From the NCBI GenBank assembly GCA_024195585.1, contig SWBL01000302.1, forward strand, positions 1-64,000: a stretch of DNA of 64,000 bases, in the 5' to 3' direction. Below, one piece after another: positions 56,991-61,621 of this stretch. The notes beneath the pieces are model-generated. The model searched no databases, had not been told where the DNA came from, and was given only the letters and a program-made list of their open reading frames with translations. Each line of letters opens with the position of its first letter. Position 1 is the first letter of the stretch. This DNA comes from Aureobasidium sp. EXF-3400. Its lineage: Eukaryota > Ascomycota > Dothideomycetes > Dothideales > Saccotheciaceae. The position numbers and the translations under genes are program-made.

Positions 56991-57143
56991 CTAAGAAAAG
57001 CAATTTTCAGCAGACAACTCACGGGATACCAGTATCAGCTCATTAGCTTCTTCAGGAGTTATATGCAGATTTTTCCAAAGCGAGAGGCACGATGTGACAT
57101 TGAAATCGTATAACAGAAGAACCAACAATATAGCAAGGTGCAT
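56991..57143 (-). CDS. Possible 50-aa peptide with family-like C-terminus (copy F or relic)
   Basis: A 50-codon frame reads MHLAILLVLLLYDFNVTSCL and then WKNLHITPEEANELILVSRE and ends ELSAENCFS. The hydrophobic start could be a signal peptide or anchor. The ITPEEANELIL segment resembles the family's TPE-x-AY-x-x-LL block, and it lies on the same strand between copies C and D, but no LRTLI exon precedes it. It may be a truncated copy, or chance. Confidence 0.3.
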   Translation of the reverse strand: MHLAILLVLLLYDFNVTSCLSLWKNLHITPEEANELILVSRELSAENCFS

Positions 57144-57345
57144 CTGAATTTATTCTCCCAATTGAAAATCAACAAGATCGAGACTGCCTAAGCATGTGTA
57201 GATACAACGATAATAGTCCATTCCGCATAGATGGTCTTATACATGAGACAGCTTTAGAAAACGATTTCAACCGACTGACGAATCGAAACAGAAAGAACAC
57301 CATAATCATCCAAACCAATCATCCCAGGGCTCCCTATCGAGATTG

Positions 57346-57666
57346 TCACTGCTCTAATCTCCACTCTGAGTATTCTCCGCTCGACATCTTGAGAGCAGTC
57401 TCGCGGAACATTCTTTTGTACGCCCCCTCGAGGCTATCGCCACGGCATCTCAGTTGGAGATGAGACATATCACAGACAAGCTCATATCTGGCGATTGCTG
57501 GGTTGTAGGATATAGCGAACTTGATATCGCGAGGATGAACGTCTTCGATGACAGTGAGGTTGTCTACATGATTGAGTTAGCTGTGAATTCCGTATACCTT
57601 TTGTCCAGATTATGGATGCTTACCGCAGATAAGTGTGCGATAGGTCAAGATGTTTGCGACAGACAT
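57346..57666 (-). CDS. Small paralogous protein, copy D (86 aa)
   Basis: Two exons (57624-57666, 57346-57563) give 86 aa. Exon 1 is MSVANILTYRTLIC. The 60-nt intron is phase 1 with a GTAAGC donor and GTAG acceptor. Exon 2 opens DNLTVIEDVHPRDIKF and ends with the diverged family block RGDSLEGAYKRMFRETALKM plus a short acidic tail. The 19 bases across its exon 1/intron boundary are identical to copy C, which points to recent duplication or gene conversion between the two. Function is unknown. Confidence 0.75.
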
Positions 57667-58479
57667 GTTGTTTCGTTGTTTGTAAGATGAGTTAGTTATT
57701 GTTGATACAGATATATAGTTGGAGAACGAGAAAGAAGAATATCTGCTTAGATGTATGTAAGAAAAAGCTCCGAGTCTGACCAAAATAGCACACTATTCTT
57801 CATGTCTCACACAGAAGTTGCAACATATTCTCAGCTATAAACAGGCACAAATGTCTCGAGATCAGAGACATATCCAAAGAAAGCCCTATAAGATAGTGCA
57901 GTTCACTGGAAACTGTCTCGTATCTCAAAACACCATGACTTTTTGTAGTGATATCATCACGGATGATGCGCCCTGAGATGAAGTATGATCAAAACTAAAC
58001 AGCCTTCTCTTATGTTGACAGAGTGCAACAAAAACACTATGAAAAGGCATAGAGTTCTTCAAATCTGGAGTGTACCCAGAGAAGGCCCCAGAAGATGGTA
58101 CAGAATCAGGGGCTCTCACTGGATAGTGTTCTATTTCCTAGAAGATCGTGCATTTCTATAGCTGACTGTAACACTACATCTCTACATGAGATAGGAGCCG
58201 GGCCAGTGTAGGATGAGCGTATCTCCTGTAGGAACAACCAGTCATAAACAGCAATAAAAAGGCATAGTGTTTTAGGAAATAGGACACTGTCCAGTGAGAT
58301 TGTGCAAATTCAGGGCTTTCTGGATACAACAACGATAGTCAAAACATTTGTGCATTTTTACAAGCATGGAAATGTCATTATTACAATGAGAGAGAGGGTC
58401 ATACATCACAGCACAAAGGAAATAAAGTGAAAACGGCAAACTTTTTGGATTTCTGTAAACTACCCATCACTTTTGAAGC
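57667..58479. other. Spacer between copy D and the intron-exon array
   Basis: AT-rich, no supported gene. Two imperfect copies of a block containing AAAAGGCATAGNGTT and TCCAGTGAGA/CACTGGATAG-type sequence (about 58035-58130 and 58255-58320) suggest an old local duplication. Confidence 0.4.
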
Positions 58480-59170
58480 CTCCGGTACTAGACAAATGAC
58501 CTATGAGTAGCAATCCCGCGCCATCGATCTCAACTCCGTCCTATTGCGTTACATCTGCGTGTCGACGTTAGCGGTGCTCGATGCTATGAGAAACGAAGTT
58601 ATGTACCCATGTCGTCGACCCGGCGGTCAAAGACTACTGCAAAAAAGCAATCCCGAGACAACGAACTGCTCTCCAAAGCTCTGATTATTATCTGCGTGGC
58701 GTTGTTAGAAGTGCTCGACACTGCGGAATAGAACAACTATCAACTTACGCCGTCGACCGGGCGTCTAGAACACTGCAAATCACCATCCCGAAACATCGAG
58801 TCTACTCCCCGATACTTTGATTGATATCTGCGTGGCGTTATTAGTAGTGCTCGACGCTACGGGATAGTATAAACTATGACTCACGTCGTCGACCCGACGG
58901 CCAGAACCAAGGCAAACAGCAGTCCCAAGACGTCCAAATACTTTCTCCAGTGTCCTGATTGTCATCTGCGTGGCGTTGTTAGCAGCGTTCGATGCGACGG
59001 GATAGAAGAGATAATGACTTACGTCCTCGACCCGAGGGCAAAATGACATCAAGAAGCAGTCCCGAGACGTCGAGGTACTCTATTTAGTGCTCTGAACGCT
59101 ATCTGCGTGGCGTTGTTAGCAGTACTCGACGCGGAGGGATGGGAATATGATTAACTTACGTCGTCGACCC
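58480..59170 (-). repeat. Tandem array of ~137-bp intron-exon modules
   Basis: About five units repeat with periods of 138, 136, 138 and 137 bp. Read on the minus strand, each of four units is a complete 57-nt spliceosomal intron (59103-59159, 58966-59022, 58828-58884, 58692-58748) followed by a 79-81-nt exon ending GGGTCGACGAC-like. All four introns keep a GTAAGT/GTGAGT donor, a CTAAC/CTAAT branch point and an identical ACGCCACGCAG acceptor end. The fifth unit has lost its donor (ATGGGT). Two exons are 81 nt and open in phase 0 (27 aa, ending RRVDD), and two have 1-2-nt deletions and stops. The array begins 23 bp after the stop codon of copy E on the same strand, so it may be its 3' UTR or a decayed exon array. 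Confidence 0.85.
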
Positions 59171-59192
59171 GGTTTCCGCTCCTCACTAACGA

Positions 59193-59607
59193 TCAAATGG
59201 GGATATAACCGCTGTCGGTGAGCTTCAAGGCAAGCTGTCTGAGCAGAGCGCGGTATGCAAGCTCAGGACTATTGCCAGAGTCCTTGAAGATGCGAGGTCC
59301 ATTGATACCGAAGCGCTGAGAAAGAGTGAGGACAACAGTGTAGAGATCGTGCTCGAACTTGTGGGCTCCATTGGCATGAGATTTGGTGTAGATCTGGTCG
59401 TCAGGGTTGATGATATCACCAGAGCCGTTCTTGGTGAAGACATCGCTGGACTTGATCTCGCAGTAGAGCACCCATCTGGGTTCGATCAGGTCTGAATGGA
59501 GGGCGAGTATGTTCTCTAGGATGTGACTATTAGTATTGATAACACTGTCAGTAATAATCGAAGAACATACCCATGATCTGCACGCGCAGGCCCATGATTT
59601 CGCACAT
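59193..59607 (-). CDS. Small paralogous protein, copy E (119 aa)
   Basis: Two exons (59571-59607, 59193-59515) give 119 aa, the longest copy. Exon 1 is MCEIMGLRVQIM, and the 55-nt phase-1 intron (GTATGT donor, CTAG acceptor) is in the family position. Exon 2 opens ENILALHSDLIEPRWVLYCE, has a longer middle (IINPDDQIYTKSHANGAHKF) and ends DSGNSPELAYRALLRQLALK then LTDSGYIPI. It is closest to copies A and B in exon 1 (EIMGLR). It is flanked on both sides by tandem arrays, the 5' one abutting its start codon. Function is unknown. Confidence 0.8.
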
Positions 59608-59625
59608 CTTGGATAGGTGAGACGT

Positions 59626-60217
59626 GAAGAGCGGCGGGGCGTTGAGTGTCTCGGAAGTTGGAAGGTTAGAGATCGTTGAAGTGTAGTGGAGCCAAGAGGA
59701 AGAGCGCTGGGCTTCCAAAGGGCAGATCGCCGAGAGAATTCACCGGTGATGGCAAAGGTAACAGAGTGTACGCGAAGAGCGGCGGGGCGTTGAATACTTC
59801 GGAGGTTGGAAGATTAGAGATTGTTAAGGTGTAGTGTACTTGCGTGGTAGAGCGCTGGGCTTCTGAAGAGTAGATCGTCGAGAAGCTTCACCGGTGATAG
59901 CAAAGGTGACAAGATGTACGCGAAGAGCGGCGGAGCGTTGAGAGTTTCGGAAGTTGAGAGGTTAGAGATCGTCAAGTTGTAGTATTGCTGAGTGGTAGAA
60001 CACTGGGCGTCCAAAGAGTAGATCACCGCGAACGTTTACCAGTGTGAGCGAAGGTGACATAGTGTACGCGAATAGCGGCGGAGCGTTGTATGATGTGTTG
60101 GCTACTGATGTGGGAGCGAAAGGTAGCAAAGTGCTGAGGGTAATGCTTGTCAAAGTTGAGCCGGTGAAGCGCGTGAATTGCGGCGCAGCGTTGTAGGAGA
60201 TGTTGACTTGCAGCGTG
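59626..60217. repeat. Tandem array of 148-bp units upstream of copy E
   Basis: The core GAAGAGCGGCGGGGCGTTGA recurs at 59626, 59774, 59922 and (GAATAGCGGCGGAGCG) 60070, exactly 148 bp apart each time. Copies 1-3 share most of their length (GTTGGAAGATTAGAGAT, GAGCGCTGGGCTTC, TCACCGGTGATAGCAAAGGT). The fourth diverges downstream. The first unit starts 19 bp before the copy E ATG, so the array forms its promoter or 5' UTR. 148 is not a multiple of three and the encoded frame shifts between units, so it is not a conserved protein repeat. Confidence 0.9.
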
Positions 60218-60540
60218 AGAGTGAAGAAGCAGAGTGAGAACAACAACTTCGATCGGGGTCTCTGAGTCAGTGAAGCGCGCGACTTGCAGCGGAACGTTGT
60301 ATGAGATGTTTACTGGCGTTGAGAGAGTAAAGAAGCAGAGTGATGAGAGCAACCCTGGTGGAAGTGATGACAGAAGCGTGCGTGGATTGCAGCGGAGCGT
60401 TTTATGAGATGCTGACTGGCAAGAGGAGAGCACAAGCGAGCAAGTTACTGAGGCAGAGCCGGCCAAAGTAGGGTCTGTAAAGCGTGAACCGCGGCGGAGC
60501 GTTCTTGTGCGGCTGGTTGCTATAGTCTGGAGTGCACGCA
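60164..60540. repeat. Second tandem array, ~104-bp units
   Basis: GTGAAGCGCG..TTGCRGCGGMRCGTTGT-like starts recur at about 60164, 60270, 60371 and 60477 (spacings 106, 101, 106). Units share ATGAGATGTTKAC and GAAGAAGCAGAGTGA blocks. The GCGGCGGAGCGTTG core is also the head of the 148-bp units, so both arrays probably descend from one element. A minus-strand frame across it (60023-60541) is not supported as a gene. Confidence 0.75.
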
Positions 60541-60758
60541 ATAGAGGTGCCTCTCACGAGCCTTCACTCACTCCATAGCCAGGCCTGAGGTGTCAAATAC
60601 CAGTCACATCCCCTCCTAGTCATCCAAAGTCACTTTAGTCTAGTGGTCGCCACCACCACTATTCGGATTCCGCTTGCTGACTCAATCCAGACACCGACCA
60701 CTACTAACGACCACAGTTCAACTCTCGATGGCATCAAAACTGACCTGTACTTTCGCAG

Positions 60759-61134
60759 ATTCTCCTACCGGCAAGGTATCGCTTGCCAGAGGTGAAAGTC
60801 CTCAAGCAACGTCTGGGTGAAGGGGCACCTGTGGAAAGGATCGTTACAAACACCTTCAGGCGGGTTGGTAAAGATCTGAGAGCACTGGGCGGGGCTAGCA
60901 AAAGGGCGGTCGAGCGACAGATGGACAACATCCGGTAAGTGAAACTTCCTGACCATTGGACAAGTGACTTTTCTTTTTGTTTTTGTGTTGTGGAAAAGAG
61001 ATAGATCAGATTTTGTCAATGAGAAAAGCGAGTCAGTGACACGCTCTCTCCATGTGCAGATTCATGTCATGCCCATAGCTGTCAAAATGCAACATAGTTT
61101 CGGGAACAAGACAGCATCTATCGAGAAGCCATAG
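60759..61134 (+). CDS. Cryptic spliced gene fragment, 5' exon unresolved (at least 104 codons)
   Basis: Two exons join in phase: 60759-60934 (after a CTGAC..TTTCGCAG acceptor, ending in a GTAAGT donor) and 60999-61134 (stop TAG). They read ILLPARYRLPEVKVLKQRLG, EGAPVERIVTNTFRRVGKDL, RALGGASKRAVERQMDNIR, then DRSDFVNEKSESVTRSLHVQ and onward to IEKP. Codon content and paired splice sites are convincing. The start codon exon was not found: the ATG at 60729 is in another frame, and its upstream CTAAC..CACAG acceptor suggests further 5' exons overlapping the repeat array. Family unknown, basic and helical. Confidence 0.55.
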
Positions 61135-61621
61135 ATTATCGGCTTTCTTTGGACCTATCTCCGGTGTACAAAGCGTTGTGCCTTTCTATAGCGTGAACGA
61201 CGTCTACAATTCCGTGGGAGGGAGGTAGGAGTTGCAGACTTTGGCACATGACGAGAATTTATGACAACTCCATTAGCGTGTGTCATGGCTTGCAGCTTCC
61301 CACAATGCCGTAGCCATGACCGGCAGCGTGGTCCAGAGGAAGTGTGACAGACCTCCTGGCGGTCGAGCGATGGATAGATGGAGGCAACGATGAATTGCCT
61401 GACGTTGAAGATGCTCCTTTCGAAATGCTGGTGATGCGTGGTTCGATGATCCGTGCTGGTGTGTGTGTCCTGGCATTCTCGGAACATCAGGTGAAAGAGT
61501 TTGAGACATGGGGCGATCGTGCTCGCTATGAACGTAAGCGACATAGGACCACTTATCAACCGAAGGTCGATGCAACCAATGGGACTTTGCTTGGTGAACA
61601 GTACGGTGTACTGACAACCTT
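61135..61621. other. Convergent spacer
   Basis: Between the cryptic gene (plus) and the Tim-like gene (minus). Overlapping antisense frames are not supported. Confidence 0.4.

Follow-up and report, generated by a model that had tools for sequence, protein, structure and literature searches.

The question raised by this locus is how a tandem repeat lying behind a gene can keep the signals of spliceosomal introns while the stretches between them keep no reading frame. The sequence analysed, called the window in what follows, comprises the first 64,000 nt of contig SWBL01000302.1 of Aureobasidium sp. EXF-3400; on its minus strand, from 59170 to 58484, five tandem units of 136–138 bp follow the stop codon of a small gene, here designated gene A. 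The array is tentatively read, at slightly less than even confidence, as the product of tandem amplification of a stretch of the gene A 3' untranslated region (3'-UTR) that bore an intron, with putative splicing that would have been retained in the lineage of the window.

A first-pass annotation of the same DNA had described four consecutive units of ~137 bp, each with an intron-like stretch of 57 nt in which donor, branch point and acceptor are intact, separated by exons of 79–81 nt, two of which are broken. This layout is real and the measured lengths agree with it (Table 1); exons 1 and 3 contain stops, exons 2 and 4 are open in frame 0, the frame that continues gene A, and the description is now extended by the minus-strand orientation, the position after the stop codon of a gene and the relatives found elsewhere in the genome. 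The array is independently detected by Tandem Repeats Finder (TRF) in two overlapping rows of period 136 and 137 with 75% matches. In units 1 to 4 the donors are, in order, GTAAGT, GTAAGT, GTGAGT and GTAAGT and the branch points CTAAC, CTAAC, CTAAT and CTAAC, and the final 12 nt of all four introns are identical (AACGCCACGCAG); judged by sequence only, these units match an ordinary spliceosomal intron of the genus in donor, branch point, acceptor and length. The equal length of 57 nt is itself ordinary, since it equals the median intron length of 57 bp given for four Aureobasidium genomes in the available part of PMC4227064, and is the product of common descent and of the usual intron size of the genus.

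When a strict signature was defined as GTRNGT, CTRAY and YAG within 45–75 nt, the window contained 11 occurrences on the plus strand and 18 on the minus strand, in comparison to an average of 7.0 per strand in 20 block shuffles, from which a chance expectation of ~0.015 per 137 bp was reckoned by hand. Inside the array there are four occurrences on the sense strand and none on the opposite one, full signals thus recurring at regular distances in four of the five units; the four are one ancestral signature and its copies, not four independent events.

Table 1. Gene A and the downstream array in the window.
Feature	Coordinates	Strand	Description
gene A exon 1	59571..59607	-	ATG at 59607; N-terminus MCEIMGLRVQIM; product aligns end to end with P0017, P0019 and P0020
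gene A intron	59516..59570	-	55 nt, GTATGT...CTAAT...TAG; from the strict signature scan; its removal gives the protein ends of P0017, P0019 and P0020
gene A exon 2	59193..59515	-	ends with TGA at 59195-59193; orphan family; window sequence without a Pfam match
array intron 1	59103..59159	-	57 nt; donor 33 nt beyond the gene A stop
array exon 1	59023..59102	-	80 nt; stops in all three frames
array intron 2	58966..59022	-	57 nt
array exon 2	58885..58965	-	81 nt; frame 0 open
array intron 3	58828..58884	-	57 nt
array exon 3	58749..58827	-	79 nt; stops in frames 0 and 2
array intron 4	58692..58748	-	57 nt
array exon 4	58611..58691	-	81 nt; frame 0 open
fifth unit	58484..58621	-	ATGGGT in place of a donor; retains branch point and acceptor; clusters with units 2 and 3 of C45; end approximate, cut at a fixed length

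The claim of the first-pass annotation that splice signals are better conserved than frame is borne out within window units 1–4, in which the 14 signal columns have a mean pairwise identity of 0.93 and the other columns of 0.69 (permutation p = 0.0036); in a circular-shift test 4 of 121 offsets, counting the zero offset, reach the same level. Neutral simulation on the FastTree tree of the units preserved the full signals in all four of them in 0.00045 of 20,000 runs, and the bare GT, branch A and AG at a frequency of 0.022. Moreover, in two open reading frames (ORFs) from related metagenome contigs, both of which cross introns 2 and 3 unspliced, none of the 14 signal residues is changed versus 28 of the 134 others (one-sided Fisher 0.045).

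The array introns are located downstream of the gene A stop on the coding strand, as read from the DNA, and if all four were spliced the junctions would fall 33, 113, 194 and 273 nt past it. The position rule for nonsense-mediated decay (NMD) dependent on the exon junction complex (EJC) requires a junction more than ~50–55 nt past the stop, and three of the four predicted junctions are beyond this distance. According to the preferred explanation, the ancestral unit would have held a real intron, and, in the simplest account, this stretch of the gene A 3'-UTR would have been multiplied by unequal exchange or slippage. The gene A transcript would then extend into the array, the four introns would be spliced, and purifying selection on splicing would have preserved the signals in the window, with few units elsewhere keeping strict ones. 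Given these junction positions, decay or dose control would be the likeliest consequence: the spliced mRNA could be placed under EJC-dependent NMD, or its expression otherwise tuned, with the number of units acting as dose, which appears possible rather than probable. A more specific version, in which each added intron-exon module would be an extra exon-junction mark past the stop and deepen mRNA decay, the exons drifting, only the splice signals being selected and the array being amplified and lost between Aureobasidium lineages, is considered unlikely.

Gene A is an intact small orphan gene whose product of 119 aa aligns over its whole length with the 120-aa proteins P0017 and P0019 of Aureobasidium melanogenum and P0020 of A. 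uvarum. Of 7,990 candidates scored in a profile search, 30 proteins reached E <= 0.001, and the named relatives are from Aureobasidium; a Pfam scan of four family proteins left three without a match and one with a chance-level match (E = 0.11), and the predicted structure (mean predicted local distance difference test score, pLDDT, 42.5) is too poor for a fold search. Against the copy at locus C107 the nonsynonymous divergence (dN) is 0.338 and the synonymous one (dS) 1.283, with a dN/dS of ~0.26, so that the gene is constrained; the C107 copy and A. melanogenum P0017 have two residue differences by eye over the stretch compared. P0002 is 98% identical to the gene A product over 85% of its length, and P0014, with the same contig size as P0002 (7811), is 83% identical to the read-through of the array. 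Separately, a minus-strand ORF at 57346-57576 (HVDNLTVIEDVHPRDIKFAISYNPA...) has a C-terminal pattern, CRGDSLEGAYKRMFRETA, that by eye resembles that of a C107 neighbour and, loosely, the SGNSPELAYRALLRQLA of gene A, of which it is perhaps an old paralogue.

The 53.4-Mb assembly holds gene A, whole or in part, at six places, and at five of these an array follows the gene or its remains on the same strand, with a total of 18 units (five in the window, three at C45, three at C107, five at C9 and two at C238), all found by iterated nhmmer on these five array stretches only. The sixth place, C66, carries a gene A piece and the 148-bp repeat that lies upstream of the gene, and its 9 kb, searched by blastn only, gave no array match. 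Five loci is a lower bound, because the DNA search with the window array, having only itself and C45 among the matches listed, missed even the known arrays of C107 and C9; the searches with the C9 and C107 arrays returned only themselves, plus gene A of the window in the case of C107. Among the places found by these three DNA searches none is an unduplicated ancestor of the unit, whose boundaries inside a tandem array are in any case arbitrary. In viral contigs 36 stretches matched the patterns used and none is a relative, and plasmid records gave no match.

The state of gene A and of the signals varies among these loci. By eye, the gene A stop precedes the array in the window and at C107 and is missing from the corresponding position at C45 and C9, and the copy at C238 is interrupted by an internal TAA; strict signatures number four in the window, one of three at C45, one of five at C9, none of three at C107 and none of two at C238. 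The unit tree separates a window/C45 group from the other loci: window units 1–4 fall together with C45 unit 1 (support 0.80), the fifth window unit joins units 2 and 3 of C45 (0.99), and the C107 units form a group of their own (1.0). From this grouping, window units 1–4 belong to one amplified unit type and unit 5 to another. A majority consensus over all 18 units reads GTGAGT, GCTAAC and CACGCAG, and the founder unit therefore probably had splice signals. Proteins P0011, P0012 and P0016 run beyond the usual stop and end directly after the letters that GGGTCGAYGACG would encode; these ends may fit a GTRA donor supplying TAA or TGA, and cut-off records would look alike. P0021 continues beyond the usual last residues VAM with letters resembling the C107 array, which has GCGAGT at that point. 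Judged by eye from such protein letters, other lineages seem to share the starting point of the array.

Several observations weigh against retained splicing. The conservation claimed by the first-pass annotation does not hold for the 13 units outside the window, in which the signals are no more conserved than the rest (0.565 versus 0.555, p = 0.43), a GT donor is present in 5 of 13 and the strict signature in 2 of 13; the best conserved block of these units (C9, C107, C238, C45) is mid-intron, at about unit positions 28–46, around TCTCGTAGCGTCGAG. The conservation of signals is thus local to the window array. At C107, which is syntenic and has an uninterrupted gene A, no unit of the three has a GT donor, so splicing looks dispensable there. 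In window units 1–4 the spacer from branch point to AG does not vary at any of its nine positions, and the eleven exon-end positions are at 0.86; since this exceeds the needs of splicing, another constraint or gene conversion could yield the same pattern. In the two metagenome ORFs exon and intron residues overall change alike (16/86 and 12/62). The conservation tests were picked after the array had been seen, the circular-shift test is weaker than the permutation, and the supports of the unit tree are below 0.85 in 13 of 15 cases; in addition, C45 unit 1 nests weakly among window units 1–4, and the amplification may therefore predate the split between window and C45. On balance, a selective signal on the splice sites is present but modest, and confined to the window array.

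Much of this would be expected if the array were a neutral relic, that is a non-coding tandem repeat after gene A whose founding unit chanced to contain an intron, or had one formerly, and which has decayed least in the window. This main rival is a serious possibility, held at about one third: across the 18 units 12 are without the strict signature and 9 without a GT donor, no extra conservation of signals is seen outside the window, the array exons keep no frame, and the read-through residues of the two relatives behave as described above. What speaks for selection instead is the signal-specific conservation in window units 1–4 and in these two relatives. The conservation of signals without frame is also compatible with an independent spliced non-coding RNA starting near or within the array, and the extension of the gene A transcript past its stop, which the preferred explanation needs, is itself a supposition; however, at five loci the array lies behind gene A, or what is left of it, in the same orientation, and a transcript separate from that of gene A is regarded as quite improbable.

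The first-pass annotation had also proposed a recently decayed exon array giving combinatorial 27-aa segments. In the form weighed here, modules of 27 aa, one per exon, would once have extended gene A or formed a separate protein. Some features agree with such decay: exons 2 and 4 are 81 nt long and open in frame 0, an unspliced frame of 99 aa spans exons 1 to 3, with 88 and 60 aa of it open in two relatives, and at C45 the frame passes the place of the gene A stop (P0013). The array nevertheless follows the stop of a complete gene, and gene A ends before it in P0017, P0019 and P0020. The 13 measurable exons of the five loci keep no frame, being 74–111 nt long with 80 as the commonest length and only 4 of 13 divisible by three; frame 0 is stop-free in 6 of them and the third frame in 8, above the hand-estimated expectation of about 4, yet this third frame cannot be chained because successive exons are 80 nt. 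Furthermore, the search that found the open relatives can detect open frames only. Coding modules were rejected on account of exon lengths and upstream stop, and are very improbable. Still a little less credible is the idea that the array forms structured RNA hairpins. A long mid-intron to exon stem can be folded from window unit 3 and, to a lesser degree, from unit 1; in unit 3 pairing extends to 14 of 15 arm positions (arms TCCCGTAGCGTCGAG and CTCGATGTTTCGGGA). Over the 18 units, on the other hand, own arms pair no better than swapped ones (11.28 versus 11.40 of 15; permutation p = 0.84, within-locus 0.31), so that covariation is absent, and no Rfam family reached its gathering score in 57000-61500, where one sub-threshold worm snoRNA match (24.3 bits versus a cut-off of 50) lies outside the array.

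The suggestion that amplification acted on the introns themselves is not supported, because the whole 137-bp unit is repeated and dispersed intron copies were not found by the DNA searches. In the genome, one 17-base pattern from branch point to acceptor, the only pattern used in the search for dispersed copies, occurs with at most two mismatches at 14 places, versus 18 for its reversed control, and all three exact places and one of the two with one mismatch belong to the window array. An introner-like element was accordingly rejected.

As regards the genomic setting, the stretch 40056-64000 of the window is collinear with C107:121329-145631 at 72–79% identity (nine rows), and the part at 20–22 kb matches C117 at 68%. 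A haploid Aureobasidium genome is 25–30 Mb, and the 53.4-Mb assembly is about twice that. Assembly size, collinearity with C107 and the match to C117 make it likely that two genomes, of a hybrid or a mixture, are present. Diploid hybrids of A. melanogenum are reported, with genomes above 46 Mb as one mark of diploids, in the accessible text of PMC9535773; the GC content of the window, ~50%, compares with 49.9–51.1% given for four Aureobasidium genomes in part of PMC4227064.

The surroundings of gene A contain other repeats. Upstream of the gene, at 59622-60560, there is a second, different tandem repeat with units of 148 bp and then, by eye, of ~120 bp, in which a motif of the GCGGCGGAGCGTTG type recurs; related repeats exist at C107 and C66, and the strict intron signature is absent from this upstream stretch. 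Further on, the stretch 60553-60983 is conserved (76.6% to C107) and holds a plus-strand ORF, 60744-60938, divergent from gene A. The locus is flanked at 57838-58360 and 61038-61241 by self-inverse repeats of the type ggcacagt ... ctgtgcc, roughly 110–130 bp by eye, with related copies at C45 and short matches on C56, C1 and C55; these are possibly miniature inverted-repeat elements.

If the array introns are spliced, the five loci would offer a natural series of 0 to 4 intact introns of equal length after one gene family, which would allow a direct test of whether the number of 3'-UTR introns sets the mRNA level and of whether selection can act on splicing alone where the exons are non-coding; if they are not, the locus would be an example of intron signals decaying within a non-coding tandem repeat.

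A literature search of limited scope gave no paper combining Aureobasidium, introns, tandem repeat and untranslated region. Aureobasidium belongs to the same fungal class as the introner-bearing Dothideomycetes. The introner-like elements of this class, as presented in the available portion of PMC4457414, are likewise copied introns of spliceosomal type; in contrast, the copies found here form arrays behind members of one gene family, and each copy includes the exon as well as the intron. Neurospora transcripts that have introns close to the stop or beyond it can undergo NMD via the EJC (Zhang and Sachs 2015, as cited in the part of PMC7746235 consulted). The array resembles such 3'-UTR introns of filamentous ascomycetes (same portion of PMC7746235) in that its introns lie past the stop on the strand of the gene, with three of four junctions more than 50 nt beyond, and differs in that four introns of equal length derive from tandem copying, with splicing and decay here being putative. 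In the model of intron creation by tandem duplication, splice signals are also multiplied by duplication, but there a new intron is made partly from exon, whereas here the repeated unit already contains a complete intron and lies beyond the coding sequence. Finally, stwintrons, as far as described in the accessible text of PMC8469720, are like the array a compound arrangement of fungal introns; unlike them, the four array introns stand side by side with exons between, and none is nested in another.
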